Under the pieces are notes generated by a model that worked only from the letters and a program-made list of their open reading frames with translations, ran no database searches and was not told where the DNA came from. DNA of 61,184 bases from contig JARFTZ010000013.1 of assembly GCA_029289235.1 (NCBI GenBank), positions 1 through 61,184 of the forward strand. Direction: 5' to 3'. A program made the translations under genes and the position numbers. This document shows positions 1,475 to 17,909 of the stretch, in pieces. The stretch is from Gammaproteobacteria bacterium (lineage in GTDB: Bacteria > Pseudomonadota > Gammaproteobacteria > Burkholderiales > Rhodocyclaceae). Numbering within the stretch: the first letter of the stretch is position 1; each line of letters opens with the position of its first letter.

Positions 1475-2782
1475 TCAGTGCAGAAACCTCGTGGGCGTAT
1501 CCAGATCCATATACGTCTTGCTGTGGTACAGCGCGGATACGAACTTGCGCCATAGCAGATCAGGCTCCCCAAGACTGAACCCGTAGTACTCGTTCGCACC
1601 TTCGTTATGGCCGCGCAGTGCCAAAGCGCGGATGTGCGATACATCGCTGTGTCCTAACTGCACGACTGTGTCGAACCAGATATTCAGTGGCAGCGGTTTG
1701 GTGGTACGGGCCTGGAAACCATAGCGGGAAACTTCTATGACTTCGATCGGTATTTCCTGGCTTCCTTCGTCGTTTGAAAGAACAAGTTTGGCCGGGCATT
1801 TCACCGAGAAACGCTCATGTTTCCGAACCGGGATTCCTTTTGATGTTGAAGGCAATTCCGGGAGAATAGCGCGATATTCAGGCAAGTCGTAGATCGTATG
1901 CAGGAGGACCTTCTTGCGGTCGCTCAGGTTTCTGAAGGTGTTGGTTCGAACGTTGAAGAAGTAATCAATCAGGTCCGGCGTCAATACCGGATCGTTCGTC
2001 GTGAAGAAGCGGCGATTGGGGAACTCGATATTGGGTAGCTTGATCTGGGTGAAGTACGCATGGAGATTTCGGCGTGCCGGTTTCGATTCGTAGTGCTTGC
2101 GGAATATTTCGGGCGCTTCCCATAGATCCAGCGTGGCTCCCACTGCGGGAGCCCCGTTCACGAAGTCGTAGTTTTCGACCACGTTTGCGGAAAGACGCTG
2201 GAAGAACAACAACGATTCGTACATTTCAATATGGCTCGGGTTGACCGCGATGACGAGATGCCGTGTATCGAAGAAGGTAGTGCAGTATTCGTACATGAAC
2301 TTCATCAAGGGAAACAGGATGCTTCCGCCGGTTTTCCTGAAGTCGCGATGCACGGCCAACGCTGAGACCTCGGCGACCTGCCCTTCTTTTTCCCGGACAC
2401 CGGTCAGGTCGAAAATCTTCTGGAGCGGTACGCCGAGGGCACTTTCGCGGATCAGCGAGATCGTTCCGACGACCTGTCCGTCGTACTTGGCGCATAGTGT
2501 CGTCGTTGTCGGGAGTGCGTGGTAGATGGTTACGCGCATCCCGGAAGGGTCCGGCTTCATGAAGCCGCTTTCCACATAGGCATCATGAAGGAGCTTGAAA
2601 CACTCCTCCAGTTCGTCTCGCGTCTCGGCAATCTTCAGGACGAGGCGCCGACTGGGGTTCGGGTTGCAGTCGGCGAACGAGCGGAAAACTTCGAAACGCT
2701 GTTGCCGGGGAAGCCATGAGATTGCTTTTCGCGTTGCTCGATGTGCGACACGTTTGAAGAACGAGCGAAGGTTTTTCAGCAT
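1475..2782 (-). CDS. FeeM-type N-acyltransferase fused to a PilZ domain
   Basis: This encodes 435 residues; ATG is preceded by GGAGGG at good spacing. Residues about 45-240 have the fold signature of FeeM/autoinducer-synthase-like GNAT acyltransferases: an early RxELEECFKLLHDAYVESG stretch, then VGTISLIRES, and EVSALAVHRDFRKTGGS as the acyl-donor-binding region. Known relatives transfer a fatty acyl group from acyl-ACP to an amino acid. Residues about 325-425 form a PilZ domain: RKHERFSVKCPAKLVL supplies RxxxR, and EVSRYGFQARTT stands in place of the usual D/NxSxxG. This suggests that cyclic di-GMP controls the acyltransferase. It is transcribed away from the IS debris and lies downstream of the kinase/PqqD cassette. 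Substrate unknown; the C-terminus is probably cytosolic. Confidence 0.7.
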   Translation of the reverse strand: MLKNLRSFFKRVAHRATRKAISWLPRQQRFEVFRSFADCNPNPSRRLVLKIAETRDELEECFKLLHDAYVESGFMKPDPSGMRVTIYHALPTTTTLCAKYDGQVVGTISLIRESALGVPLQKIFDLTGVREKEGQVAEVSALAVHRDFRKTGGSILFPLMKFMYEYCTTFFDTRHLVIAVNPSHIEMYESLLFFQRLSANVVENYDFVNGAPAVGATLDLWEAPEIFRKHYESKPARRNLHAYFTQIKLPNIEFPNRRFFTTNDPVLTPDLIDYFFNVRTNTFRNLSDRKKVLLHTIYDLPEYRAILPELPSTSKGIPVRKHERFSVKCPAKLVLSNDEGSQEIPIEVIEVSRYGFQARTTKPLPLNIWFDTVVQLGHSDVSHIRALALRGHNEGANEYYGFSLGEPDLLWRKFVSALYHSKTYMDLDTPTRFLH

Positions 2783-2835
2783 GGCACTACCCTCCGTTGA
2801 AGGAGATTTGTCCTAATCATAGACAACTGTGAACC

Positions 2836-3957
2836 TTACGGCTCGGGTTTCTCGGGGGCAGGCGTAAACAAGGTCTCCCAGGCACGGGCTGTCGAGTTCC
2901 GCATCGCCTTGCGGAGCAGATGCTGAACCAGTAGCGGGAACGGCATGCGCAGCCAGTGCGAGCGAATGTAAAGGAATGTTGTCGCGAGACGGCTACCTTT
3001 GGTGCTGCAGCTGTGATGTTGGGGGATCAACGCCCGTTGATAACAGAAATCCATCATCGACGAAATAATCGGGGCTGGCTTGCCTGGCTCCAGCTCGTTG
3101 ATAACCTCCACTGGAATGGGGGTGTTAAGGATCTTCGAACAATAGCGGAGCGCGTAGTACAACGGGCGGCGCATTCCGAGTTCAGCAGCCCGGGGAACGA
3201 GTTGTTCCCAGAAATCCGGTATCGCTCCGAAATGACGGAGCAGACAATCCAGATCGAACAGATCTCTCAGGCCGTTGTCGAGCGTGCCCTCATGGAAAAG
3301 GTGTGTGGCGCTGTGCAACACCATGTCCACCGGGGCCAGTACGTATAAACGGCCATGCCCCGGGACGGCGATCGCACTCTGGAAAAGAAGCGCTGTGTTG
3401 ATCTTCAGCCGGGCGGATTCGGGAAGTACCGTGTGATGAACGTCGATGCTTGTTCCGCGTTTTACGTGGCGCATGGGCGGAATCTCGTGCATCCACTGCC
3501 GATAGTAATGTTGGTCGTAATCATCGTGATGCGTGCCTTGCCATCCGTGCAACATCAGTTGGCTCTCGACTTCCGCAATACGTTGTTTGGGCACGAGGAT
3601 GTCGACATCGGCGAAGGTCCGCCCCTTGGCGGTCGGGAGATCCGACAAAAGATAGGCTGCGCCTTTCAGCAGGATGACTCGTTCATCGACGCCGGCCAGT
3701 GCGCGCAAGATGCACTCGACCTCCCAGCGCATGGCGGAACTTTGTCTATCGGCCATACGCAAGGCGGACAGGAGGTGCGAGCGCGGCCGTGGCGGAACGC
3801 GATCCATCAGTTGTTGTTCAACGATGCGATGAGCGAGGCGCGCAAGCAGGTTTGCGCGCCTCCCTTGCCGAACGAGGAGATCCCACTCGGGGGCTGACAG
3901 CCCGGTTACCAGCGAGGGCAAAAGCAAAGCGCGTGTGATCAAGGCGTTGCCGCTCAT
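2836..3957 (-). CDS. Nucleotidyltransferase-fold protein of the HPr-rel-A cassette
   Basis: This encodes 373 residues. I chose the ATG at 3957 because it overlaps the upstream kinase stop as ATGA; the 26 codons before it lie inside the kinase gene. The central motif LLKGAAYLLSDLPTAKGRTF with ADVDILVP (residues about 96-123; Arg113, Asp117, Asp119) is the catalytic pattern of the nucleotidyltransferase PF14907 group. Members sit beside lasso-peptide tailoring kinases and PEP-CTERM loci. It contains conserved-looking His residues (HHDDYDQHYYRQWMHE; HSATHLFHEG) after the NT core. No membrane segment. It probably transfers a nucleotide or acts with the adjacent kinase; the acceptor is unknown. 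Confidence 0.8.
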   Translation of the reverse strand: MSGNALITRALLLPSLVTGLSAPEWDLLVRQGRRANLLARLAHRIVEQQLMDRVPPRPRSHLLSALRMADRQSSAMRWEVECILRALAGVDERVILLKGAAYLLSDLPTAKGRTFADVDILVPKQRIAEVESQLMLHGWQGTHHDDYDQHYYRQWMHEIPPMRHVKRGTSIDVHHTVLPESARLKINTALLFQSAIAVPGHGRLYVLAPVDMVLHSATHLFHEGTLDNGLRDLFDLDCLLRHFGAIPDFWEQLVPRAAELGMRRPLYYALRYCSKILNTPIPVEVINELEPGKPAPIISSMMDFCYQRALIPQHHSCSTKGSRLATTFLYIRSHWLRMPFPLLVQHLLRKAMRNSTARAWETLFTPAPEKPEP

Positions 3958-4868
3958 TCGCAGCCCCCGGCCAACCGGTCGAAGATTCGAACAGCGTCTT
4001 CGAGGTTGCTGTAGGAGAATCGATAACAGTGACATGCGTCGATCAGCCTGCCGACGGCGGCAAAACCATTCTTGCCGTGGATGTCGTAGTTGAATGACTG
4101 CTCCGCGAGAAGCATGAACGCCAGCGCCCGATCATGCGGCACCAGTTCCGGACTAGCCTCCGGTGAATAATCCGGGACGATGATCCACGCGGGCCTTGCC
4201 GGGGCGTCGCGCGCGGCGATGCTCTCTTCCGGCGGACGCATCAGTGCGATCGTGCCTTTGGTCGTGTCCGGCACGGGGCCTGTCATCACCGCGTGTGGGG
4301 CAAAGCGCCTGATGACATCGATCGAAGCATTCTTCAAATTAACAGGGCGGCACATGCCGCATACCAATCCACTATCCAGATCAAGCAGCGCCAGTTCATC
4401 GGACAACAATCGCCACCCTCGATTGATCAACCCGGCACACAGGGTACTTTTCCCGGCTCCTGGAGCGCCGGGGAGGATCGCCGCCCTGCCCTCGCGCTCG
4501 ATTACCGCGGCGTGGATGATCAGATACTGGTGGCCATGTGCCGCGACGCACCAGTTCAATCCCCATTCGAGCATGGCGAAGGACTGGCTGACGGGCAACG
4601 GGATGAACGACGGACGGCCGTCGAAATAGAATCTGGCGCGTGGTTTCATCCAGTTGAGTAGTCCGGACTCGCGGATTACGGCCACGTGGAAATCGGCGAA
4701 GGCGTCTTCGGGGCAGGTGTCGAATCCGGCGTACATCAATGCGATGTCTCTCGCAATACCGGGAATGTTGGAGCGGATTCGTGCGACAAATGGCTTCAGA
4801 TCGAGTAGAAGCTCGCCGCTTTCAAGCCGGCGGGTTAGTTGCTCGTGCGAGTAGTTTGATATTTTCAA
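3954..4868 (-). CDS. HprK-related kinase A
   Basis: This encodes 304 residues with the P-loop GAPGAGKST at 134-142 preceded by a conserved His (IIHAAVIE, His119) and followed by LLSDELALLD (154-163), which replaces the HprK Walker B region. That arrangement is typical of HprK-related kinase A proteins. These lack the N-terminal domain of true HPr kinases and occur with PqqD-like partners in exopolysaccharide/PEP-CTERM loci. A related enzyme phosphorylates a serine of the lasso peptide paeninodin. The gene overlaps its neighbours by four bases at both ends, so the three proteins are very probably made together. It likely phosphorylates a Ser of a peptide or protein; the substrate is not established. 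Confidence 0.85.
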   Translation of the reverse strand: MKISNYSHEQLTRRLESGELLLDLKPFVARIRSNIPGIARDIALMYAGFDTCPEDAFADFHVAVIRESGLLNWMKPRARFYFDGRPSFIPLPVSQSFAMLEWGLNWCVAAHGHQYLIIHAAVIEREGRAAILPGAPGAGKSTLCAGLINRGWRLLSDELALLDLDSGLVCGMCRPVNLKNASIDVIRRFAPHAVMTGPVPDTTKGTIALMRPPEESIAARDAPARPAWIIVPDYSPEASPELVPHDRALAFMLLAEQSFNYDIHGKNGFAAVGRLIDACHCYRFSYSNLEDAVRIFDRLAGGCE

Positions 4869-5185
4869 TGGCGCCCGCTGCAGATAACCAGGTCAATGGC
4901 TTGCAGGTCGTGCAAGATGATCTCTATGATATCCAGCTTTTCGTCAGACTCCTTTTCTTCCCGGAAATGGTCCGGCAATGCTCCAAGGAGTTGCTCGCGC
5001 GTGGCGGGAGCGGTTTTCAGCTGGTGGAGGATATCGCCGGCCAAAGGCGATAGAAGATGCGTGTCCCCGCTCAGGCCGTTGTATACGACTGTTCCCGAGT
5101 CCCAGGAACGCAACTGCAGATTGTCTGGATCAAGTGGCGACCAGCGGGAACTGTCTGGTTGTACGGGTTTTGTTTCCGGCAACAC
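4865..5185 (-). CDS. PqqD family peptide chaperone, HPr-rel-A system
   Basis: This encodes 106 residues from a GTG start preceded by AGGGG. The chain shows the PqqD layout: a beta-rich N-terminal half (SGTVVYNGLSGDTHLLSP) followed by helices (AGDILHQLKTAPATREQLLGAL ... DIIEIILHDLQAIDLV). PqqD-like domains are leader-binding elements (RRE) that present ribosomal precursor peptides to modifying enzymes. The gene overlaps the kinase gene by ATGA and follows the Tat-leader protein gene by 10 bases, so its natural cargo could be that protein. Family assignment is good; the cargo is inference. Confidence 0.8.
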   Translation of the reverse strand: MLPETKPVQPDSSRWSPLDPDNLQLRSWDSGTVVYNGLSGDTHLLSPLAGDILHQLKTAPATREQLLGALPDHFREEKESDEKLDIIEIILHDLQAIDLVICSGRH

Positions 5186-5195
5186 GTAGCCCCTG

Positions 5196-5828
5196 TCAAG
5201 GAACGGCGATCCAGTTGTTTCTCAGGTAGTCGACAATCTCGCTTGGCCCCCAGACAACCGAAACATTTGGCGGGCTGAAAGTACCTCTCGCCATCTGCTT
5301 GATCTCCGACAGCGTAATGCAGTTACCCAGCGAAGAAAGCAGCATGCCGTTCAACTGGGCAACGACAACTGTTTGCTGGAACCCGGTGCCAGCCGTGAGG
5401 AATGAGACGACGGTCATGTTTTTATCGACTCCGGCCGGGATGGCAAGTCCTTTTTTTTCCTCAAGTTTCTGAAGCTTGACCTGAGTCCAATTGTTGCCGA
5501 ATCCCAGTCTTTGCCAGGGTCGGCCAAGCCCTGCCCGTCCCGTGTTGGTTCGCCAGTTGCTGATCGTCCAGGTTTCATCAGCGTACGAGGCATGCCCCTG
5601 GTTGGTCGCGAGGCTCGTGGCCGGATTCAGCTGTTCGGACCCCCATGCTGAAGGTGACTTGCAGTGCCACGCGAGGACCGGGCGGCTCGCCAAGGTGAGG
5701 AGTACCGGCGCAACGCGCGTTCCCTGCTTGAGAAGGCGCCGCCTCGATTGCGCCTTTTGATCGACGGCTGCGGCTTCTGCTTCTTCCGGGGGGGTCTTCT
5801 TTTCAGACGCATTAACCTGTTCGTTCAT
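5196..5828 (-). CDS. Tat-leader protein at the head of the kinase/PqqD cassette (candidate substrate)
   Basis: This encodes 210 residues. The first 27 are acidic and Ala-rich (MNEQVNASEKKTPPEEAEAA). SRRRLLK at 28-34 then matches the twin-arginine consensus, followed by a modest hydrophobic run (VAPVLLTLASRPVLAW, 39-54). Immediately afterwards comes a short motif HCKSPSAWGSEQLNP with Cys56 and several Ser residues. The rest looks like a soluble beta-rich domain with a second Cys (LGNCITLS) and no family I recognise. It is the first gene of a minus-strand run with the PqqD, kinase and NT genes, 10 bases from pqqD. The composition suggests a folded exported protein rather than a small peptide. 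It is proposed, not shown, to be the modified substrate. Confidence 0.6.
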   Translation of the reverse strand: MNEQVNASEKKTPPEEAEAAAVDQKAQSRRRLLKQGTRVAPVLLTLASRPVLAWHCKSPSAWGSEQLNPATSLATNQGHASYADETWTISNWRTNTGRAGLGRPWQRLGFGNNWTQVKLQKLEEKKGLAIPAGVDKNMTVVSFLTAGTGFQQTVVVAQLNGMLLSSLGNCITLSEIKQMARGTFSPPNVSVVWGPSEIVDYLRNNWIAVP

Positions 5829-5935
5829 GACGGGGCCTGTCAGTGTCTGGTGAGAAAGGGGGACTCTGAAAACAATCTAAACGTTTCAGGCGTTGCGGTG
5901 TGTGACGTAATGCACTTTTTGCAGGAAATAGAAGT
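5829..5935. other. Intergenic region ahead of the Tat-leader gene
   Basis: This 107-bp stretch between the protease stop and the Tat-leader start contains an AT-rich patch (about 5868-5935, with TGTGTGACGTAATGCAC). It should hold the cassette's promoter on the minus strand. I cannot assign -35/-10 boxes with confidence. Confidence 0.3.
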
Positions 5936-6724
5936 TTATCTGCTCAGCATTTCGGCCAGATGGCTGACCGGAATGGCAAAGCTGATTCCGGAGGGCTGGG
6001 ACAATGCCGCTTCCTTCGTGCCTTTGACAAAAACCATGTTGATGATCCCGATGACTTCACCGCTCTCCGAGTCCAGAAGCGGCCCGCCACTGTTGCCGGG
6101 ATACGCGGTTCCATCGAGTTGGTAGACGTTGAATGCGCCATTCTTCAATTGACGAATCATGCGTTCGTTGAGCTGTTGCGAATTGCCGCTTGGCAGTGAA
6201 ATCGGCGTAATCGAGGAAATGATCGCGCGATGTGTCACGGTCGAAAGGCCGAGAACGGTACCGATCGGAAAACCCATGAAAATGACGCTCTGCCCCTCCC
6301 TTACCGGGTCGGCGTGCAGTGGAAGAGAGGGCAAGGGCGGACCGTCGATTTGAAGCAAGGCAAGATCATGCGCGGCGTCGCTACTGATCAGGCGGGCGGT
6401 TCGTTGCTGCGAGTTTCCGCTTCCCAGGGGAAGGCGTACGACCAGGGATTCGTTCCCGGAAGCAGCAACCGACGGTGGAATGACGTGGGCGTTTGTCGCG
6501 ACGAGATTGCCACTGGCGACCGCAAAACCCGAGCCCCGCATGACGAAGGCTGGGCTTCGCGTCCTGTCGAATGTGCCGATTGCGACGATGGAGGGTTTGA
6601 CCCGTTGAATGAGATCCGGAAGGCCTGAAAAGGCGATTCCCGGAGTCAACAGGAATGCGATCGCGGCCATCGAAGTCCATCTCGATAAAATCCGGCATAG
6701 TGTCGTGTAGCCATGAGTCGCCAT
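5936..6724 (-). CDS. Secreted trypsin-like serine protease (S1C type, no PDZ)
   Basis: This encodes 262 residues; ATG has AGGAG eight bases upstream. The N-terminus has a basic stretch, a hydrophobic core (MAAIAFLLTPGIAFS) and a probable signal cleavage near residue 33. The catalytic triad is visible: His80 in ATNAHV, Asp120 in AHDLALL and Ser212 in YPGNSGGPLL. The chain ends soon after the protease domain, so it lacks the PDZ domains of DegP/DegQ. It is expected in the periplasm or outside the cell. It lies between the transglycosylase and the Tat-leader protein on the same strand and could trim secreted products of the locus, including the Tat-leader protein; that link is inference. Confidence 0.85.
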   Translation of the reverse strand: MATHGYTTLCRILSRWTSMAAIAFLLTPGIAFSGLPDLIQRVKPSIVAIGTFDRTRSPAFVMRGSGFAVASGNLVATNAHVIPPSVAASGNESLVVRLPLGSGNSQQRTARLISSDAAHDLALLQIDGPPLPSLPLHADPVREGQSVIFMGFPIGTVLGLSTVTHRAIISSITPISLPSGNSQQLNERMIRQLKNGAFNVYQLDGTAYPGNSGGPLLDSESGEVIGIINMVFVKGTKEAALSQPSGISFAIPVSHLAEMLSR

Positions 6725-6757
6725 AGTCCGCTCCTGTAGACCTTTGTGCGGCCGCGT

Positions 6758-7651: not shown

Positions 7652-7670
7652 ACACGCCCTCCTCCGTTGC

Positions 7671-8708
7671 TTATGAGAAACGCGAGATGTACCAAGGCAT
7701 GGCCATACGAATCCCTTCGTCCAGCCGGTGGGTTGGCGCATAGCCAAGGAGCTGACGGGCCTTCGTGATATCCGCCTGCGAGTGCCTGACATCACCGGCC
7801 CGGAAGTCGCGATAGGCCGCGGGCGGCACGGTCCACTCCGGCCGAATCTCAAGCAGCGCATTGCGTAGCAACGCAAACAGCGAATTGAGTGAAGTCCGTT
7901 CGTTCAGTGCAATGTTGAAGACCTGATTGACCGCCTCGCGGTTGTCGGTCGTCGCCGCCAGCAGATTGGCCTGGACGGCGTTGGCGACATAGCAGAAATC
8001 GCGACTGGTCTCACCATCACCATTGATCAAGACCTGTTCATCGAGCAGCATCGCCCGCGTCCAGCGCGGGATAACGGCCGCATACGCGCCTTCCGGATCC
8101 TGGCGCGGCCCGAAGACATTGAAGTAGCGCAGCCCTATCGACTCGAATCCGTAGCACCGCCCGAAAACGTCGGCATACAGTTCGTTGACCAGCTTGGTCA
8201 CGGCATAGGGAGACAACGGTCGGCCGATGGCCTCTTCGACTTTTGGCAAGGCTGGATGATCGCCATATGTCGAACTGGAGGCGGCGTAGACAAACCGGTG
8301 AACACCCGCGTCGCGGGCCGCAATCAGCATGTTCAGGAAGCCGTCGATATTCGCCGCATTGGTGGCCAGGGGATCCACCAAAGAGCGCGGGACCGAACCG
8401 AGCGCAGCCTGATGCAGTACATGGTCGATGCCTTCGCACGCTGCCCGGCAGGTCTGCGGATCGCGGATATCGCCTTGAATAAGAAGAAATTTCCGCCATT
8501 GTGACGCATCGAGCGAATTTTCTATTTCATTGAGATTGCGCTGATGCCCCGTGGCAAAGTTGTCGAGGCCAACGACGACTTGCCCCAGGCGCAGCAATGT
8601 CTCGACCAGGTGCGAGCCAATGAAACCGGCGCAGCCCGTAACGAGCCAGCGCGCGGGCTGATCCGGCAGGCGCCGGGTCAGCTGTTCATAGGCGGTCAGA
8701 GACGCCAT
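7671..8708 (-). CDS. NAD-dependent UDP-sugar 4-epimerase (WbpP/TviC-like)
   Basis: This encodes 345 residues of the extended SDR family. The Rossmann motif is [14 protein letters not shown] near residue 24, with catalytic SSSTYGD and the YxxxK pair SPYAVTK. The length and the motifs GSVPRSL and [13 protein letters not shown] are typical of UDP-GlcNAc/UDP-GlcNAc-uronate C4 epimerases such as WbpP and TviC/VipB. Its 5' end overlaps the dehydrogenase gene by 13 bp, so the two enzymes probably act in sequence, oxidising and then epimerising a UDP-HexNAc to a uronic acid for exopolysaccharide. Exact substrate unknown. Confidence 0.85.
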
Positions 8709-9976
8709 ACGGTGACTCCCTGCTCGGCGAGCGCCGTTTCGTCGAACATGCTCTTCACATCAGTCAGCACGCCTCCCGGCTGCAGTTTTTCGAGATAGTC
8801 CGCCAGAGGCCGGCTTCTGAATTCGGCGTGCGAAACAGCCGCCACGATTGCCGCGGCTCGCGGCAAATCGTCCCAGGCAGTCAGTTCAACGCCATACTCG
8901 TGCATGGCTTCGTCGGCGTCGGCAACCGGTTCATGGACCAGCACCCGGGCACCGTAGGATTGCAGCTCACGGATCACGTCGATGACCCGCGAATTGCGCA
9001 GGTCCGGGCAGTTCTCCTTGAACGTCAGCCCCAGTACGATGATTGGCGCATCCTTGATTTTCCAGCCGTTGCCGACGAGTTTCTTGATCGTCATCTCGGC
9101 GATGAATTTTCCCATGCCGTCATTGATGCGCCGCCCGGCCAGAATGACTTCCGGGTGATAGCCGAGCATCTCCGCCTTGTGGGTCAGGTAATACGGATCG
9201 ACACCGATGCAGTGGCCGCCGACCAGTCCCGGCCGGAACGGGAGGAAATTCCACTTCGTTCCCGCCGCGTTGAGGACCTCCAGCGTATCGATGCCAATCC
9301 GCTCGAAGATGATCGCCAGTTCGTTCATCAGGGCGATGTTCAGGTCGCGCTGGGTGTTTTCGATGACTTTGGCCGCCTCGGCAACCTTGATGCTCGATGC
9401 GGGATGGACACCTGCGGCAATGATGCTCGCGTACATCTCCTTCACTCGAGCCAGGGTTTCCGGTGTGTCGCCCGAAACAACCTTGACGATTTTCGTCAGC
9501 GTGCGCTCCTTGTCGCCCGGATTGATCCGCTCCGGTGAGTAACCGACAAAGAAGTCGTGTTTCCATGTCAGGCCGGATTCCCGCTCGATGATCGGAATGC
9601 AGACTTCCTCGGTCGCGCCCGGATAAACCGTGGATTCGAAGACAACAGTGGCGCCCTTTTTCAGGTTCTGGCCGACGGAACAGGAGGCACCGATCAACGG
9701 CCCGAAATCGGGTTGGTGCGCTGCATCTACCGGCGTAGGAACGGCAACGACGATGAAGTCCGCATCGCGCAAGGCGCTGGACTCACAAACTGGCTCGAGG
9801 TACTGCGACGCCTTGAGTTCTTCGGCGGAAACCTCTCCCGTCGGGTCGAAAAAATTCTTGTAGTTCGCGACCTTCTCCGGCGAAAGGTCGAACCCGATGG
9901 TCCGCCATTTCTTTCCGAACTCTACAGCCAGGGGAAGTCCAACGTACCCCAGACCGACGACTGCAACTGTTGTCAA
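8696..9976 (-). CDS. tviB: Nucleotide sugar dehydrogenase (TviB/WbpO type)
   Basis: This encodes 426 residues. I read a TTG start at 9976 because AAAGGAG lies at the proper distance and the protein then begins [15 protein letters not shown], the NAD-binding motif. Other signatures are [24 protein letters not shown] and the catalytic Cys in [14 protein letters not shown]. The overall sequence resembles UDP-N-acetylglucosamine/galactosamine 6-dehydrogenases (TviB/VipA, WbpO) rather than UDP-glucose dehydrogenase. It performs two-step NAD-dependent oxidation to a UDP-aminouronic acid. It is located between prsT and the epimerase in the exopolysaccharide run. Confidence 0.85.
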
Positions 9977-9991
9977 TATTTTCTCCTTTTG

Positions 9992-12769
9992 TTATTTGAG
10001 CCCCTGCAACAGGGACCTGGCTTCATTGGCCGCCGGTAGTTTTTCACCGAGCGAGATGATTTCTTCCAGTTCTTTTCTGGCGTCCGGCGCCTTGCCGGCC
10101 TTGATCAGCGCCTTGGCGAAATTGAGCTTGATCGTTGGATTCTTCGGCGCCAGGGAGTCAGCCTTTTTAAGTAGTTCCAAGCCTCGTTCAATGTCGCCCT
10201 TTGCTACGAGTAGCGTTCCCAGCGTATCGATGATCGTCGGTTGTTCGGGCGCCAGTTTATAGGCTCTCTCGGCAAGCTCGATTGCCTTGGGATCTTTCGC
10301 CTGTCCCATGACCCAAGCGAGATTGTTCATCAGGGCCGGATTGTTCGGCTGCTTGTCGAGAAGGTAATTGTAGTGCTTGATCGCCGATACATAGTCTTTG
10401 CGCGCAGTCGCAGATTCCGCGACGTAAAGCCGGAAACGGCCGTCTGCCGGATGATCCCTCATCCAGCTCTCCGCGAATTTGTCAGCCTCGGCAGGAAGAT
10501 TTTGTGCCATCAGAACGGCGTAAAGCTTGACGGCGAGCTCAGGGGCGGCCGTCTGCCGCGTTCCGTTCCGGTATGCATTTGCTGCTTCCTTCCAGGATTT
10601 TCCGAGCGCATAGGCATCGCCTTCCAGCAAATAGCCGGCAATATTCTTGGGATGCTGTTTCTGGATGTTGCGCGCCCGAGCGATGGCATCATTTATCCGG
10701 CCAGCCTCCAGATCGAACATCATGATGCCCCGCTGCGCCTCGATCGAATCCGGCTTGACCGACAGCGCCTTGCGCAGGCTTTGGAGAGCGGCTTCCTTGT
10801 TCTTCGCCGCCATGTGTACTTCCGCCATGCGTAGATGCGGCTGCGGTGAGGTCGGCGCCAGGGTGGCCAGCTTCCCGTAGGCGGCCAATGCCTGGTTGTA
10901 GTTTTCGGCCGCCTGCTGCGCTCGCCCCTCCGCGTCGAGGATGGCCAGGTTGTCCGGGAGAGCCACCAAAGCATCTTGCGCCGCGGATACTGCCTTCTTT
11001 GCGTCCTTGGTGCCTAGATGCAGGTTGATCAGCGCGAGGCGTGCCGGCACGTTGGCGGGATTCGCCGCGATAGCCTTGCCTATCAGCGCCGCAACCTCGT
11101 CCGGTTTTCCGCCGGATCGGGCCAGCAGTTCAGCCAATGCCAGCCAGGCTTGCGTATTCTTGGGGTCTTTGGCCAGAACGCTCTCGAAACGTTTCTTCGC
11201 TTCCTCCGGTTTCTTGTCCGCGATATCCAGCCGGGCGAGGCTGGCCGCTGCGGGGAAATAGGCCGCATTCTTGGAAAGAGCCTTCTCGAAACTCTGCCGA
11301 GCCCCGGCAAAATCGCGCTTTCCCACCAGCGCACTGCCGCGGAGATTGTCCGTGAGCGGGTTGTCCGGCTGCTTTTTCTCCAGCGTGTCGATTGCCTTGA
11401 GCGCCTGATCGAACTTGCGGGCGCGAAGATGCGAGGCGATCAACGCCAGGTCGGCCTTGATGCCGGTATCGATCGAGGCGATTTTCTCCAGCTCGCGGGT
11501 AGCCGTGTCGGTTTCGCCCTGAGCCAGCTGGGAAAGCGCTACGGAGGTCCGCTTGGCCTGGTTTTCGGGGTCCAGCGCGGCAGCTTTCGCAAAGTACGTT
11601 TCCGCTCTATCGGCGTCACCGTTCTGCATGAACACTTCGCCAGCCAAGGCCAACAGGTTCGAGTTGTCATCGATCTTGTCGAGGATCGGCTCCAGGACAC
11701 TCAGCGCTTTGTCAGGTTGCCTGCTGCGCAGGTAGGTGGCGATGAGCATCCGGCGAGCCAGCCCTAGTCCGGGCGCCTTGGACAGAGCATCCTGCAGGTA
11801 TCTTTCTGCCGTGGCATATGATTGAAGTTCGTATTCGATTGCGCCTGCCAGTTGCAACCCCTGCACGCTTCCGGGCAACGATCTCAGGTGTTGCTGAATC
11901 GCGTCCCGGGCTTCCTTGAATTTTTTCTCCCGAAACAGGAGCTCCGCCTGGACATAGCTGGTTTGAGGATGCGATGGTGCCACCTTCTTCATCGCCTCGA
12001 ATTGTTTTCCCGCTTCGTCGAGTTTTCCTGACTCAATGTGCCGCGCGATGAGCGAGGCATGGGCAGGCAGATAATCCGGCTTGGTCTGGAGAATCTTGCG
12101 GTAGGCATCGCCCGACTCATTCATCTTGCCTTGCACGGATAGGATGTCGCCCTTGAATTGCAAGGCGTCGATGAAGGCGGGATTCTTCTCCAGGACAGAA
12201 TCAATGAGTGTCGTCGCTGCTGCGAAATCCCGGTTGGCGGCCTTGATTCTCGCCTGGCCGAAGACAGCCGGTCCGTAGTCCGGCATCGCCGACAACGCTT
12301 CGTTGAAGGCGGCCTGCGCGGCATCCATTTTTCCAAGGGCCAGCCAGGCGCGCCCGAGCGTTGTATTCAGGTCGGCCTTCCCTTCGCTTGAGGTTAGTTG
12401 CACCTTCCCCAACTCATCGACGACCCTTTTCGTCTGCCCCAGTGCAAGCAGCGCACGTGCTTGCACTGGAACGAGTTGATCGGCCGGATACTGCAGGTCA
12501 GCCGCTTTGCGCAACTCAATCTCCGCGCCGGTGGCATTGCCGTCTTCCAGCAAGGCCTTGCCCAGGAGGAAACGCGCTTCCGCAAGATCGGGTTTGTTCT
12601 GGAGCGCGTTCTTCAGCTGGATGACCGCAGCCTTGCTGTCATTCTTGGCGAGATAGTCTTTTGCGGAAGCCAGCATGGACTCCGGACTGTCCGCCCCGCA
12701 GGCGGACAACGCGAGCCCCGTCAGCAGGATCGATACTGTACGCCGAGCCATCAGTTTTCTGTTATTCAT
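9992..12769 (-). CDS. prsT: PEP-CTERM system TPR-repeat lipoprotein PrsT
   Basis: This encodes 925 residues from ATG 12769. That start gives an ideal lipoprotein signal (NNRKLMARR, hydrophobic TVSILLTGLA, lipobox LSAC) and has GTGGGG upstream. An in-frame ATG at 12820 that overlaps the prsR stop is the alternative start. After Cys24 the chain is an almost continuous array of TPR units (for example AVIQLKNALQNKPDLAEARF and AIKHYNYLLDKQPNNPALMN). Such giant TPR lipoproteins define PrsT and sit beside PrsK and PrsR in PEP-CTERM/exopolysaccharide loci. Likely a periplasmic outer-membrane-anchored scaffold for polysaccharide export or assembly. Confidence 0.9.
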   Translation of the reverse strand: MNNRKLMARRTVSILLTGLALSACGADSPESMLASAKDYLAKNDSKAAVIQLKNALQNKPDLAEARFLLGKALLEDGNATGAEIELRKAADLQYPADQLVPVQARALLALGQTKRVVDELGKVQLTSSEGKADLNTTLGRAWLALGKMDAAQAAFNEALSAMPDYGPAVFGQARIKAANRDFAAATTLIDSVLEKNPAFIDALQFKGDILSVQGKMNESGDAYRKILQTKPDYLPAHASLIARHIESGKLDEAGKQFEAMKKVAPSHPQTSYVQAELLFREKKFKEARDAIQQHLRSLPGSVQGLQLAGAIEYELQSYATAERYLQDALSKAPGLGLARRMLIATYLRSRQPDKALSVLEPILDKIDDNSNLLALAGEVFMQNGDADRAETYFAKAAALDPENQAKRTSVALSQLAQGETDTATRELEKIASIDTGIKADLALIASHLRARKFDQALKAIDTLEKKQPDNPLTDNLRGSALVGKRDFAGARQSFEKALSKNAAYFPAAASLARLDIADKKPEEAKKRFESVLAKDPKNTQAWLALAELLARSGGKPDEVAALIGKAIAANPANVPARLALINLHLGTKDAKKAVSAAQDALVALPDNLAILDAEGRAQQAAENYNQALAAYGKLATLAPTSPQPHLRMAEVHMAAKNKEAALQSLRKALSVKPDSIEAQRGIMMFDLEAGRINDAIARARNIQKQHPKNIAGYLLEGDAYALGKSWKEAANAYRNGTRQTAAPELAVKLYAVLMAQNLPAEADKFAESWMRDHPADGRFRLYVAESATARKDYVSAIKHYNYLLDKQPNNPALMNNLAWVMGQAKDPKAIELAERAYKLAPEQPTIIDTLGTLLVAKGDIERGLELLKKADSLAPKNPTIKLNFAKALIKAGKAPDARKELEEIISLGEKLPAANEARSLLQGLK

Positions 12770-12816
12770 ACAAACCCCACTTCGTAAGTGTGTCATCCGG
12801 GATGTGGCAATCGTTT

Positions 12817-14175
12817 TCATTTTAGTCCGTAGCGATGCATGAGGTCATACAGCGTCGGTCTGCTGACTCCAAGCATCTCCGCCGCTCGCAGAACGTTGCC
12901 ATCAACTCGCCCGAGCGCCGTGATGATCACGCGTCGCTCGGCCTCTTCGCGCGCCAGACGCAGGTCCAGGATGCCTTCTTCGCTTTCTGTGGCTTCGTTC
13001 AGGCCGATGTCTTCGAGCGTGATCTGGTTGCCGTCGGCCATGATAACGGCCCGTTTGATGCAGTTTTCCAGTTCACGCACGTTGCCCGGCCACGAGTGGC
13101 TTTCGATGGCGCGGAGCGCGTCTTCGCGAAGGGTCATCGCGCCTCGCTTGTGCTCTTCCGCAAAGCGGCGAACGAAGGCATGCGCCAGCAGCGCCGCGTC
13201 ACCCTGGCGATTGCGCAAGGGCGGCAGACTGACCACGATTTCGGCCAGCCTGTAATAAAGATCGTCGCGAAACCGCCCTTCACTGATCAGTGCTTTGAGA
13301 TCCTGATGGGTCGCGCAGACGATGCGTACGTCGACGGGTATTTCCTGACGACCGCCGATCCGCTCGATCACCCGCTCCTGCAGGAAACGGAGAAGTTTCG
13401 CTTGCAGGGGCATGGGAAGATCGCCGATCTCGTCAAGCATCAAGGTGCCGCCATCGGCGACTTCGATTTTCCCAGGGGTCGTCTTTACGGCACCGGTAAA
13501 AGCCCCCTTCTCGTAACCGAACAGTTCGCTTTCGAGAAGGGTATCTGGAATGGCCGCGCAGTTGATGGCGATGAAGCGTTGTTTCTTTCTGGCCGATGCG
13601 GCATGTACGCCGCGCGCGATCAGTTCCTTGCCGGTACCGCTTTCGCCGAGCACCAGAACGGTCGCATCGCTTGGAGCAACCTTTTCCACGGTACGGCAAA
13701 CCCGCAAGACTTCGGGGTCGCGGCTGATCAATCCGGCCAGCACGTCTGGTTGATGCATCAACTGCAACCGGGCGTTCTCCTGCTGCAAATCGTAAAGACG
13801 GTAAGCACGGTCGATCGTCAAGCCGAGCATGTCGACTTCAAAAGGCTTGGCAAAGAAATCGTATGCGCCCAAAGCAACTGCGCGCAAGGCGTTGCTGCGG
13901 TCGTTTTGGCCGGTGAGAACGATGACTTTCGTTTCAGGGGCAAGCGTCAGTAGTTCTTCCAGCAGCTTGAATCCTTCTGAAACCGAATCCGGGTCCGGCG
14001 GAAGGCCGAGATCCATCGTCACGACCGGGGGCATATGGCGACGAATCTGCGCCAATGCGCTTTCGCGATCACTCGCCGTGAGCGTTTCATATTGATCGAA
14101 GGCCCAGCGGATCTGTTTCTGCAACGCCGGGTCATCTTCGACGATCAGCAGTGGGCGCGGTTTCTCGGAACTCAT
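12817..14175 (-). CDS. prsR: PEP-CTERM-box sigma-54 response regulator PrsR
   Basis: This encodes 452 residues in three parts. A receiver domain (phospho-acceptor Asp55 in TMDLGLPP, Lys in AKPF). A sigma-54 AAA+ domain from about residue 148 (Walker A GESGTGKE, the sigma-54 contact loop GAFTGA, Walker B GGTLMLDEIGDL). And a Fis-type HTH at the C-terminus (VLRAAEMLGVSRPTLYDLMH). This matches PrsR, proposed to activate sigma-54 promoters of exopolysaccharide and PEP-CTERM protein genes. It overlaps prsK by four bases (ATGA), so kinase and regulator are co-translated. Confidence 0.93.
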   Translation of the reverse strand: MSSEKPRPLLIVEDDPALQKQIRWAFDQYETLTASDRESALAQIRRHMPPVVTMDLGLPPDPDSVSEGFKLLEELLTLAPETKVIVLTGQNDRSNALRAVALGAYDFFAKPFEVDMLGLTIDRAYRLYDLQQENARLQLMHQPDVLAGLISRDPEVLRVCRTVEKVAPSDATVLVLGESGTGKELIARGVHAASARKKQRFIAINCAAIPDTLLESELFGYEKGAFTGAVKTTPGKIEVADGGTLMLDEIGDLPMPLQAKLLRFLQERVIERIGGRQEIPVDVRIVCATHQDLKALISEGRFRDDLYYRLAEIVVSLPPLRNRQGDAALLAHAFVRRFAEEHKRGAMTLREDALRAIESHSWPGNVRELENCIKRAVIMADGNQITLEDIGLNEATESEEGILDLRLAREEAERRVIITALGRVDGNVLRAAEMLGVSRPTLYDLMHRYGLK

Positions 14176-16274
14176 GCAGAGACTCCAGTGCTTGCGGTAG
14201 TTGAATTCATCTCGTTTCCTGCGACGAACAGCGGCAACAGCAGGCTTACACGGGTTCCGGCGTTTACTTCACTATCGACCGATACCTTGCCGCCGAGTTC
14301 TTGCACATACTGGAAACTCTCGTAGGCACCAATTCCCATTCCGGCGGGCTTGGTCGTCTGGAACGGTTTGAACAGACGCTCCCGGAGGAACTCAGGACTC
14401 ATCCCGTGGCCCGTATCGCTGACGACCACCAGTGCGAGGCTGTCCTGGCGGGAAATCGAAACACGAACATCGCCTCCCTGCTCCGTGGCGTCCAGTGCAT
14501 TCTGGACGACATGCCCGATCACGCGTTCGACGCGGTCCTCATGTCCCTTGGCAATGAGCTTTTCCGTCGCGTCGATTTCCAGGCTCCGTCCCTGCCGCAT
14601 TTTCGCCGCCTGAATCCTGTGGACGATCGCTCCAAGATCGACACCGCGCGGACTGTCCACCGGCGTGGCGCCTTCGCGTAACTGCATCATCAACTGACGC
14701 ATGCGTTCAACCGAGTTTTCGACGGTCATCAGCATGTCCTGCTGGAATTCCGGGTTGTCCCGGTGGCGTTCCGCATTCTTCAGCATCAGGGACAACTGGG
14801 CAACGATGTTCTTCAGATCATGCACGACGAAGGCCGACATCCGGTTGAAAGCGTCGAATTTCCGGGCTTCAAGAAGCGCCTCGGCGGTCTGCATTTGCCC
14901 GAGGAACGCCCCCGCCTGGCGTCCTGCTGTCTTCAGAAGATCATTGACCTCCCAGTTGACTTCAACCGGTGTGCGCGCCGTCGCCAGAATTACGAAGCCG
15001 ATCAGTTCGCTTCCGGTCGCCAGCGGAACCACCAACCAGGCGTTGGGCACCTCTATCAACCATTTGGGCAGCAGCAGTTGTTCGTAACGTCCCGGTGAAG
15101 CACGGTACTCCTCCAGATTGATGATCCAGCCGCTGTCGGAAAGAAAGCGGCAAAGACTGCTGGTTGCGTCCTCGGTCGTCTCGGAAACCGGTAAGTTCCA
15201 ACGTGCGGACTGCGCAAAAAAACGTTCCGAAGGATCTCGCAGCCAGAGCGTTCCGGCGGGACTTTCCACCATGTCGGCGAGCCCTTTGATTACGTGGGTT
15301 CCCATTTCGGAAACGCCGTCCTGCGCTGAAAGCGTGTTGGTGAAACGCAGCCATTCTTCCCGGTAGTCGTAGCGGTAGCTGAAGAAGTGCTTTCCGATCA
15401 GAACGCGCAGTTTCGCCCGCATCGATCCCGAGAGCGCGAGCATGGCAAGCAGCAATATGGCAACGAACATGACCGCAATCTGCAGCGCACGTCCCCAGTC
15501 GCCGCCGAAATAGCGTACGTAATAGCCGGCGGCCGAGATGAAAAGAAGGTACAGGCCAGTGACAACCAGCGATGCCGACTGCAGCGCCGCGCGCTGCGAA
15601 AGAACGACACGCTTTTTCCAGTCCCGGCTGCGCGAAGTCGAGATGGCGATCAGCGGCACCGCCAATGCATGGACAAAACCGCGAATGCTGAAAGCGTCGG
15701 CGTCAATCCGGTTGAAAAGCAGCGCATCGGAATAGAGATACAGGTCGAATAGCGCTGCGCCGCCAAATCCGAGACACAGCGGCTTGATGCTCCAGCGTAA
15801 ATCGGGTGTGACGTTGCGCAACAGTTGCTCGACCAGAACCAGCGAAAAGACCGACGTTCCAAGCGCGTCAAGAAGAATGAGGCGTTGCGGCTGAACACCG
15901 AACCCGACGTTTGTCACCGCCATCAACAGAGACGCGAAACCGAAGGCAACCAGCCCTATGGCGATGGCTCGCAGCATTTTCCATCGCTTCGACACCTCGG
16001 AGCTGCTGTCGGGGTGCGGTTTTTCAAGAACCAGGAGGAACGCAAACCAGCTTCCGTATCGCATCAAGTCTGTCAGCAGGCTGCCGGACAGGAAAACGGA
16101 AAAACCGGTCAACGTAAAAGCGAGGCTCGTAATCCCCCACAGCGCACTGAGCGTTACGGCGAGGAATAGCGTCCGGCTGCGCACGCCCGCTTTCCATCCG
16201 TCGGCAAGAAAAATGCCGAAGATGGCGTAGGCGAACCCGGCTAATCCGTAGCTCCAGGCGCTAATTGTTTCCAT
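14172..16274 (-). CDS. prsK: XrtA/PEP-CTERM system histidine kinase PrsK
   Basis: This encodes 700 residues from ATG 16274 (GGAAGCAGG upstream; METISAWSYGLAGFAYAIFG opens straight into the first membrane segment). The N-terminal ~300 residues contain about eight or nine hydrophobic helices. A GAF-like sensor follows (TLWLRDPSERFF...), then the phospho-acceptor His485 in VVHDLKNIVAQL and an ATPase domain with NALDAT, SDTGHGMS and a G2-like GMGIGAYES. This layout is that of PrsK, partner of PrsR. It senses an unknown membrane or periplasmic cue tied to exopolysaccharide production. Confidence 0.92.
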   Translation of the reverse strand: METISAWSYGLAGFAYAIFGIFLADGWKAGVRSRTLFLAVTLSALWGITSLAFTLTGFSVFLSGSLLTDLMRYGSWFAFLLVLEKPHPDSSSEVSKRWKMLRAIAIGLVAFGFASLLMAVTNVGFGVQPQRLILLDALGTSVFSLVLVEQLLRNVTPDLRWSIKPLCLGFGGAALFDLYLYSDALLFNRIDADAFSIRGFVHALAVPLIAISTSRSRDWKKRVVLSQRAALQSASLVVTGLYLLFISAAGYYVRYFGGDWGRALQIAVMFVAILLLAMLALSGSMRAKLRVLIGKHFFSYRYDYREEWLRFTNTLSAQDGVSEMGTHVIKGLADMVESPAGTLWLRDPSERFFAQSARWNLPVSETTEDATSSLCRFLSDSGWIINLEEYRASPGRYEQLLLPKWLIEVPNAWLVVPLATGSELIGFVILATARTPVEVNWEVNDLLKTAGRQAGAFLGQMQTAEALLEARKFDAFNRMSAFVVHDLKNIVAQLSLMLKNAERHRDNPEFQQDMLMTVENSVERMRQLMMQLREGATPVDSPRGVDLGAIVHRIQAAKMRQGRSLEIDATEKLIAKGHEDRVERVIGHVVQNALDATEQGGDVRVSISRQDSLALVVVSDTGHGMSPEFLRERLFKPFQTTKPAGMGIGAYESFQYVQELGGKVSVDSEVNAGTRVSLLLPLFVAGNEMNSTTASTGVSA

Positions 16275-16403
16275 GCCTGCTTCCAAGCAAAACTCCTTCA
16301 GCTCCGGTGCGGCACCAAGGACACCATGACACACCGTGAGGGAGTCTGAACGTACCCCGAAATGTCCTTTGCCCGGGATACGTGGTATTACTTAGTTGCC
16401 TCT

Positions 16404-17786
16404 TTATTGAGCACCTTTTCCGGTGAGCACGACACCGACCGTTTCAAAAAGGATCACGATATCCAGGAACAGTGTGTGATTCTTCACGTAATACAGATCA
16501 TATTGGAGCTTCTGGATCGAATCATCGACCGATGCCCCGTAGTGATAGCTGACCTGGGCCCAGCCGGTCACCCCGGGTTTTACACTGTGGCGAACCGCGT
16601 AAAACGGGATGTCCCGGGTCAGTTGATCGACGAAATAGGGCCGTTCCGGACGCGGGCCGACCAGGCTCATGTCGCCCGTCAGGACGCTGTATAGCTGCGG
16701 GAGTTCGTCGATGCGCAGTTTGCGGATGATCCGGCCGACACGAGTCGTTCGATCGTCGTTGGCGGAAGCCCAGCGTGGTTTGCCGTCCCCTTCCGCGTCC
16801 CGACGCATGCTGCGGAACTTGATAACGTTGAACAAGCGACCGTTTCTCCCCACGCGTTCCTGGCGGTAGAAAACCGGGAGACCATCTTCCAGGACTATCG
16901 CAATAGCGGTGAGCAACATCACGGGCAAGGCGAGCAACAACAGGATACTGGCCGCGACGAGGTCGAACAGGCGCTTGACGAACGTCCGGCCCCAGCCTTG
17001 GCGAAACCCCTCGCCAAAAATCAGCCAACCCACCTTCAGCGAATCAAGCCGGATCTGCCCGAGCGCACGCTCGAAATAACTCGCGAGGTCGAGGACATTG
17101 ACGCCGGACAGCTTGCAGTCCAGCAGTTCCCTCAAAGGGAGGACGCCGCCGCGGCGTTCCTGGACCGCGATGATGATCTCGTTGACGTTGAGGCTTCTAG
17201 CTGTATCGGTCAGCGAACGGGAGCGCGGCAACAGCAATTGTTCCGGAACGCAGACCTCGTTTTCTGCCGGCCCCGGGTAGAAACCGACGATCTGGATGTC
17301 CGGATCGGATTTCTTCAAGACATTTCCCACCGTGCGGGCTTCGGGCCCGGAGCCGAAAATCAGGACGCGGTTGACCATCAGCGCGCCAGTCCGGCTGTGC
17401 ATGGTGTATACGCGATGAGCCAGGGTACCGAACAACGCAGCCAGGCCGGAAAGAAGCAGCATTTTCTGATTGTCGTCGGCGATCGACAACAATGCGAAAA
17501 CGGTATACGCGATCGGAACCGAAAGGTACAGCGACAGTACGGCCCGCGCCCTGGTTTGGGCGATGCTTCTGTTGTGCGCCCGGGTATACAAACCAAGCCA
17601 AGAGTTCAAAACGACCATAACGAGGGCGTAGATGGTTGCATAAGTGGCGACCGTCTCAAGATCAGCTTGCTCTCCCAGTCCCCAGAACAACACGGCCAGT
17701 AAAACGCAGGCAATCGGGAGGGTAATATCCAGAAAAATCTGAACGATCGTTTTCCAGTGAATCCAGTGGCTGAACACTTTGATCAT
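16404..17786 (-). CDS. Polyprenyl-phosphate sugar-1-phosphate transferase, XrtA/PEP-CTERM type
   Basis: This encodes 460 residues from the second of two close ATGs (17786), which sits about eight bases after AAGGG; ATG 17792 is the alternative. Four to five N-terminal hydrophobic helices are followed by a nucleotide-binding-like middle domain (VNRVLIFGSGPEARTVGNVL). The bacterial sugar transferase domain comes next (KRLFDLVAASILLLLALPVM, FYRQERVGRNGRLFNVIKFR, LRIDELPQL, SLVGPRPERP). It matches the EpsB/TIGR03013 group that starts exopolysaccharide repeat synthesis on the lipid carrier at the inner membrane. It is the first gene of the minus-strand run leading to prsK and prsR. Confidence 0.9.
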   Translation of the reverse strand: MIKVFSHWIHWKTIVQIFLDITLPIACVLLAVLFWGLGEQADLETVATYATIYALVMVVLNSWLGLYTRAHNRSIAQTRARAVLSLYLSVPIAYTVFALLSIADDNQKMLLLSGLAALFGTLAHRVYTMHSRTGALMVNRVLIFGSGPEARTVGNVLKKSDPDIQIVGFYPGPAENEVCVPEQLLLPRSRSLTDTARSLNVNEIIIAVQERRGGVLPLRELLDCKLSGVNVLDLASYFERALGQIRLDSLKVGWLIFGEGFRQGWGRTFVKRLFDLVAASILLLLALPVMLLTAIAIVLEDGLPVFYRQERVGRNGRLFNVIKFRSMRRDAEGDGKPRWASANDDRTTRVGRIIRKLRIDELPQLYSVLTGDMSLVGPRPERPYFVDQLTRDIPFYAVRHSVKPGVTGWAQVSYHYGASVDDSIQKLQYDLYYVKNHTLFLDIVILFETVGVVLTGKGAQ

Positions 17787-17909
17787 GATCATCACCCTTG
17801 ATTGGTCAGCCGTGGCGACAATGGCTGACCCTCTTAAAGGTCCGGCAACTTGGTGCCGCGGACACGGTTGCAATAATTTCTTCTTTACTTGAATTGCAGG
17901 TTAGCATCC

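Follow-up and report, generated by a model that had tools for sequence, protein, structure and literature searches.

Organisation of the locus

The window analysed here is a stretch of 61,184 nucleotides from a bacterium of the Rhodocyclaceae, and its subject is a minus-strand locus of four genes encoding a protein with a twin-arginine translocation (Tat) signal, a PqqD-family protein, an HprK-related kinase A (HprK_rel_A) and a nucleotidyltransferase-fold (NT) protein (Table 1). We find that the Tat gene accompanies the kinase in most of the genomes in which this kinase occurs and that the Tat proteins share a fixed serine, a combination that would fit a dedicated module for modifying one exported protein. 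An initial annotation of this DNA had described the four genes and taken them for a peptide-tailoring cassette; all four open reading frames (ORFs) were recovered with the families it had assigned. It had also described ATGA overlaps joining pqqD, the kinase gene and the NT gene, which is correct for the kinase/NT junction, but the pqqD/kinase junction is a 4-base-pair TTGA overlap. The Tat gene, described as nearly abutting pqqD, is indeed its neighbour, but the two lie 10 base pairs apart. A longer version of the NT ORF reaches position 4035, and the start at 3957 agrees with its relatives. The kinase, PqqD_rel_X and PF14907 models each match once in the window genome, which also encodes a TatC (247 bits).

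Table 1. Features of the four-gene locus and its surroundings in the window.
Feature	Position	Strand	Description
Tat-signal protein (type 1), proposed substrate	5196..5828	-	210 amino acids; leader with SRRRLLK...TLASRPVLA
Signal peptide, residues 1-53	5670..5828	-	SRRRLLK, hydrophobic stretch, T45-L46-A-S48-R49-P50-V-L-A53
Proposed modification site, C56-K-S-P-S60-A-W-G-S64	5637..5663	-	directly past the signal peptide; conserved
PqqD-family protein, putative discrete RRE	4865..5185	-	106 amino acids, GTG start; TIGR04353 (PqqD_rel_X) 57.1 bits, cut-off 35
HprK-related kinase A	3954..4868	-	304 amino acids, TTG start; TIGR04352 (HprK_rel_A) 394 bits, cut-off 200
Nucleotidyltransferase-fold protein (NT)	2836..3957	-	373 amino acids; PF14907 209 bits, cut-off 31
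Trypsin-like serine protease, accessory neighbour	5936..6724	-	PF13365
FeeM-like N-acyl amino acid synthase, accessory neighbour	1475..2782	-	PF21926 157 bits
Exopolysaccharide / PEP-CTERM cluster	7671..17873	-	TviC- and TviB-like sugar enzymes, PrsT, PEP-CTERM response regulator, PrsK, EpsB-type glycosylphosphotransferase

The two putative enzymes keep their catalytic residues, in line with the families first assigned to them. In the kinase, H119, K140 of the P-loop, D157 and E158 are invariant in 34/34 sequences and align with the H, K and DD of HPr kinases, with E replacing the second D; in the NT protein, K98-G99, D117-x-D119 and D172 are invariant in 22/22 sequences. The assignment of the PqqD protein as a RiPP recognition element (RRE; RiPP, ribosomally synthesised and post-translationally modified peptide) is supported by its predicted model (predicted local distance difference test, pLDDT, 91.4), whose closest folds in the PDB are leader-bound lasso B1 RREs (6jx3_B at E 7.8e-4, then 5v1u and 5v1v at E 2e-3 to 1e-2). 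The Pfam PqqD model PF05402 gives no match to this protein, and sequence-only searches of the PDB returned a weak TbiB1 match for it (E 0.91) and chance matches only for the NT protein.

Recurrence of the Tat gene beside the kinase

Searches with TIGR04352 found kinases above the cut-off in 41 of 369 genomes of a class sample and in 61 of 398 genomes of a phylum-wide sample which, with four genomes common to both, gives 98 kinases. We examined 97 of these loci (the window, L031-L070 and L181-L236), leaving out G524 with its partial kinase, and the two whose contigs end near the kinase (L061 and L218) could not be judged. A gene with a Tat leader is present in 89 of the remaining 95 loci, namely in 40 of the 41 of the first set and, in the second, in 40 recognised by profile, eight read as type 3, and L196. 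The initial annotation had proposed such recurrence beside other PqqD/kinase pairs as a check, and its expectation is borne out. The Tat gene mostly lies directly upstream of the PqqD gene on the same strand, and in L196 both are on the opposite strand. PqqD was detected in 84 of the 89 Tat-positive loci, and presence of the two genes is correlated (both, 84; Tat only, 5; PqqD only, 1; neither, 5; Fisher p 2.5e-5 with kinship ignored). Among 80 further named loci picked by kinase similarity, two of which lie on the same contigs as L031 and L034, a Tat-gene profile match was found in 79, some of them in overlong ORFs and that of L071 short; L127 has neither Tat gene nor PqqD. An environmental host, Rubrivivax gelatinosus, is represented by L095 and L099. 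The arrangement of Tat, PqqD, kinase and NT genes is thus more than chance, since the set recurs in two genome samples.

Variants of the layout were also seen. The Tat gene is placed after the NT gene in L141 and L143, and in the latter two kinase/NT pairs flank a single Tat gene that lies downstream of the first NT gene. In L193, L194, L195, L203, L207 and L211 about 1.5-2 kilobases (kb) separate kinase and NT genes, some of these gaps holding an ORF that weakly resembles the tetratricopeptide repeats of PrsT.

The converse question, whether the Tat protein occurs apart from the kinase, was addressed with a profile (A2) built from 27 type 1 proteins, all from kinase neighbours, and run on the 369 class genomes with at most eight candidates per genome scored. 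It matched in 35 of the 369 genomes at E <= 1e-6. Matches that include the leader (E <= 1.4e-12) occur in 30 genomes, all of them among the 41 kinase genomes, the other 11 of which have no full-length type 1 match; G296 carries a second type 1 copy on a contig other than that of its kinase. Weaker matches in four genomes (G015:C37, G080:C1, G099:C48 and G215:C152) cover the body domain only, without a leader, within open frames of about 200-650 amino acids on contigs with no kinase above the cut-off, and the match in G184, to the leader, is followed about 0.6 kb downstream by an HprK-like kinase that scores below the cut-off (L255). Because the profile derives from kinase neighbours and at most eight candidates were scored per genome, the absence of type 1 matches elsewhere is soft. 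The association of Tat gene and kinase is real and specific.

The type 1 Tat protein

Conservation of type 1 proteins was assessed over 105 aligned rows, excluding L071, L101 and L107, whose ORFs are short or were trimmed wrongly, L041, which resembles type 2, and L109 and L128, which lie on the same contigs as L034 and L031, respectively. The Tat ORF of L071, from a Candidatus Accumulibacter metagenome-assembled genome, has just 67 amino acids, pointing to a broken gene or an assembly error. Within the signal peptide R30 is found in 105/105 rows, R29 in 104/105, P50 in 92/105, S48 in 86/105 and R49 in 77/105, so that its conserved end reads T-L-x-S-R-P; with its twin-arginine signal, and TatC encoded in the genome, the protein has both features of a Tat substrate. 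Cleavage probably falls after A53, judging by the V-x-A that precedes the mature part, and the motif C-x(2,3)-S-[GA]-x-x-S begins three residues past this likely cut. The position of C56 at +3 also means that a lipoprotein reading of this cysteine is not favoured.

In the mature part the most conserved residue is S64 (105/105), followed by S60 (103/105), C56 (99/105), L159 (97/105), N160 (96/105) and W92 (95/105). The strict pattern C-x(2,3)-S-[GA]-x-x-S, counted over 106 rows, matches 78/106 type 1 proteins and 4/9 that were held out, and the shorter S-[GA]-x-x-S matches 98/106 and 8/9; among 6216 background stretches there are 94 matches to the strict and 403 to the shorter pattern. Roughly 150 residues follow the signal peptide, and the AlphaFold model of the window protein shows a helical domain, predicted with confidence, that starts around residue 91 (blocks of pLDDT 78-97 over residues 91-210), with the S60-S64 stretch as a low-confidence helix. 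This model has no match in a PDB fold search with Foldseek (best E 3.7), and no sequence relatives are present in the PDB (best E 1.6). The window protein belongs to no Pfam, NCBIfam or PHROGs family, and 30 members of types 1-3 gave at most one weak chance match per Pfam or NCBIfam family (E 0.003-0.009).

Other types and short relatives

The Tat proteins of types 2 and 3, found mostly in the phylum-wide sample, have bodies that differ from type 1 and end in C-x-x-S-[FLIA], usually C-W-x-S-F. This C-terminal pattern is present in 45/48 of them, the serine being found by eye in 48/48, in comparison with 224/7718 background ORFs. Two of the rows, L230 and L232, had been found through the motif itself, and their Tat leaders were read afterwards; leaving them out gives 43/46. 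L196 is outside the 48. The N-terminal pattern of type 1 occurs in 0/39 type 2, 0/7 type 3 and 0/8 type 4 proteins, and the C-terminal one in 0/115 type 1 proteins. Minimal relatives (L054, 74 amino acids; L206, 82 amino acids) still keep the conserved serine motif in a mature part of about 12 to 20 residues.

We also read 24 loci (L237-L260) with HprK-like kinases below the HprK_rel_A cut-off. At least nine of them (L237, L238, L246, L249, L250, L252, L254, L255 and L260) have a Tat-leader ORF of about 55-106 amino acids near the kinase, and in the other 15 none was seen or the case was unsettled; where scanned, L254 and L260 also have a PF05402 PqqD and a PF14907 NT protein. These short ORFs likely represent a wider class of Tat-exported peptides. 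The peptide-tailoring claim of the initial annotation stands in part: the candidate substrate of type 1 is a protein, but peptide-sized relatives exist.

In the leaders of these short relatives the motif [Y/W]xxPx[hydrophobic] lies inside the Tat hydrophobic stretch in 7/8 scored, and by eye also in L249; it comes close to the motif that PMC13381572 gives for binding by discrete RREs. The bare P-x-[hydrophobic], counted within the hydrophobic stretch only, was found in 56/115 type 1, 38/39 type 2, 0/7 type 3 and 8/8 type 4 leaders; by these counts type 2 and type 4 leaders fit the lasso-like RRE motif better than type 1 does as a group. Other Tat signals from the window genome, taken as a control, gave ten matches, about six of them readable, which is too few to use.

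Genomic neighbourhood

Upstream of the locus and on the same strand follow a gene for a trypsin-like protease, a lytic transglycosylase-like gene and then exopolysaccharide and PEP-CTERM genes, with the FeeM-like gene downstream. The locus sits at the end of an exopolysaccharide/PEP-CTERM cluster, the initial annotation having placed it near an exopolysaccharide locus; an exosortase is encoded on a different contig of the window genome. Among 138 loci with enough flank, the NT gene lies near the kinase in 132, a relative of the protease in 39 and a FeeM-like relative in seven. The protease is not considered core because a relative is near only 39/138 loci, and we likewise rejected polysaccharide genes or the protease as a core of the module, at least one of those looked for being near only 13/31, 26/62 and 6/45 loci. 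The FeeM-like protein has an additional C-terminal domain that we take to be PilZ-like from its look, and at 115-387 on the minus strand lies what is presumably the start of an IS256-type transposase.

The absence of a lasso cyclase and a B2 protease, also claimed at the outset, agrees with the scan of the window neighbours, among which neither was named (the relatives' neighbourhoods were not scanned for these families); PF00733 matches in the window genome lie elsewhere, away from the locus. No SpI-like peptidase or MsbA-like exporter family was found among the scanned window genes at 1475-17873, the relatives and the whole genome not having been searched with these models.

A proposed module for modifying an exported protein

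We consider it probable that the four genes form a module dedicated to modifying a single exported protein. In the mechanism we propose, the PqqD protein, acting as an RRE, would bind the Tat signal peptide of the newly made protein and deliver it to the HprK-like kinase, which would phosphorylate, or perhaps polyphosphorylate, the invariant serine in C-x(2,3)-S-[GA]-x-x-S past the signal peptide in type 1, or the serine of the C-terminal C-x-x-S-[FLIA] in types 2 and 3. The PF14907 protein may then add a further group, a sugar or a nucleotide, onto the phosphate before the modified protein is exported through Tat. The Tat protein is likely the substrate, and a fixed serine kept in bodies as otherwise unrelated as those of type 1 and types 2/3 counts in favour of this scheme, as do the association of Tat gene, PqqD and kinase, the confinement of full-length type 1 proteins to kinase genomes, the minimal relatives, the RRE fold of the PqqD model, the alignment with HPr kinases and the precedents from LPP and lasso peptide kinases described below; binding of the leader, the modified site and the transferred group are inferred, and the chemistry is a prediction. 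A bolder version, which we regard as unlikely, holds that the Tat signal peptide also serves as a RiPP leader in a widespread and as yet unnamed modification class, in which a phosphate or glycosyl-phosphate on the invariant serine would make the exported protein an anchor or primer for the exopolysaccharide that the same locus produces.

Several observations weigh against the proposed module. Known discrete RREs recognise [Y/W]xxP, a motif that occurs in 0/161 leaders of types 1-3 (0/115, 0/39 and 0/7), that of the window included, which rules out a shared [Y/W]xxP leader for these types, and even the bare P-x-[hydrophobic] is confined to 56/115 leaders of type 1 and 0/7 of type 3. Six kinases have no Tat gene that we found nearby (L198, L199, L205, L212, L222 and L236), all except L236 also without a clear PqqD and L198 with only 1.3 kb upstream, and five Tat-positive loci (L219, L221, L223, L224 and L225) lack a clear PqqD, a weak ORF standing at the right position in three of these. 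The strict serine pattern covers type 1 incompletely, the held-out proteins included; the scheme has to invoke two sites, one towards each end of the protein, to account for all the types; and the conserved cysteine and serine could serve folding instead. The NT step is the weakest, because deleting the corresponding nucleoside triphosphate (NTP) transferase of linear polyphosphorylated peptides (LPPs) caused no detectable change of product, according to the searched text of PMC13381572.

The kinase and NT protein might instead act on another cellular substrate, such as a sugar, a lipid carrier or a regulator of the polysaccharide locus. The Tat protein would then be no more than an exported partner made from the same transcript, and PqqD would be a subunit with a regulatory role. 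Sugar-nucleotide and PEP-CTERM genes do adjoin the locus, and a few loci have the kinase, some with NT, with no Tat or PqqD gene found nearby. The Tat gene, however, accompanies the kinase far more widely than do those polysaccharide genes, or the protease, for which we looked; where Tat is missing PqqD mostly is too, and the serine is invariant in otherwise unrelated proteins, and we hold this explanation to be rather unlikely. A little less credible to us is that PqqD is mainly a chaperone of the Tat signal peptide, holding the protein until it is modified or folded, with a kinase step that is regulatory and not structural: chaperones that bind the signal peptides of Tat substrates are known, as described in parts of PMC3712460 and PMC3316669, and the conserved T-L-x-S-R-P would suit such a role, yet on its own it leaves the NT protein and a fixed serine outside the signal peptide unexplained, and it is compatible with the proposed module rather than exclusive of it.

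That the phosphoserine is an intermediate, from which the phosphate is eliminated so that the nearby cysteine adds to the dehydro-residue and closes a small thioether ring, appears very unlikely. A cysteine does stand three residues before the serine in 45/48 proteins of types 2/3, and shortly before S60 in 99/105 of type 1, but among the four core genes we saw neither a lyase nor a cyclase, and the cysteine is missing in 3/48 and 6/105 rows in which the type 2/3 serine and S64 stay. We give hardly any credence to the idea that the locus is a RiPP cluster, of the lasso type or another known one, left without its cyclase, in spite of the RRE, kinase and NT parts in common, as the four-gene set recurs unchanged across many genomes; the lasso-remnant reading is further disfavoured because the scanned neighbours in the window, described above, include neither a named Asn-synthase-like cyclase nor a B2 protease.

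If the proposed module is right, RRE-guided, kinase-based tailoring would extend from small peptides to whole Tat-exported proteins, HprK_rel_A would be given a family of substrates along with a predicted serine, and two fields, those of RiPP leaders and of Tat signal peptides, would become joined. The peptide-sized relatives put this prediction within reach of short substrates, synthetic or co-expressed.

Comparison with known systems

The window kinase and PqqD protein score above the cut-offs of TIGR04352 and TIGR04353 and so resemble the HPr-rel-A system of NCBIfam, which differs in that the Tat protein is named by no NCBIfam or Pfam family. Among open PMC papers we found none by the names of the HprK_rel_A and PqqD_rel_X families, and among the matches listed, judged by titles and the starts of abstracts, none joins the HprK_rel_A or PqqD family to a Tat protein; subscription papers and preprints not in PMC were outside this scope. 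The texts of PMC13381572 and PMC12710340 were searched by term. As far as the sources above describe redox enzyme maturation proteins, a cytoplasmic partner there too binds a Tat signal peptide and the substrate is completed before export; the window locus differs in having an RRE-fold protein, whose binding is proposed here, and a kinase in place of cofactor insertion.

The lasso peptides paeninodin and pseudomycoidin offer a second parallel. According to parts of PMC9266682, the HprK-like kinases PadeK and PsmK phosphorylate a serine of the precursor, an RRE is present, and in pseudomycoidin PsmN, an annotated nucleotidyltransferase, is required for hexoses on the phosphoserine. The difference is that the macrolactam cyclase and B2 protease are not among the scanned window neighbours and that the proposed substrate here is a Tat-exported protein.

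The closest known system is that of the LPPs of Bacillota (Popov et al. 2026, PMC13381572), which in the searched text combine a discrete RRE, an HprK-like kinase and an uncharacterised NTP transferase, with no macrolactam cyclase. Their precursors have 35-200 amino acids, and LppK phosphorylates Ser3 of the core, directly past the leader. The discussion of that paper calls LPPs restricted to Bacillota, and its main text returned no match for Tat, twin-arginine, proteobacteria or Pseudomonadota. LPPs carry a YxxPxVLxHQ leader and use an MsbA-like transporter and a peptidase of the SpI-like (SipW) type, whereas in the window the leader is a Tat signal and neither a peptidase nor an exporter was seen among the four core genes; we set the locus apart from the LPPs because the peptidase, exporter and leader motif were not found. 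The trio of RRE, HprK-like kinase and NTP transferase is nonetheless present at the window locus. The surroundings are also alike, with LPP clusters found embedded in capsular polysaccharide loci, and LPP and paeninodin clusters often lying by such loci, as the window locus lies by an exopolysaccharide locus.

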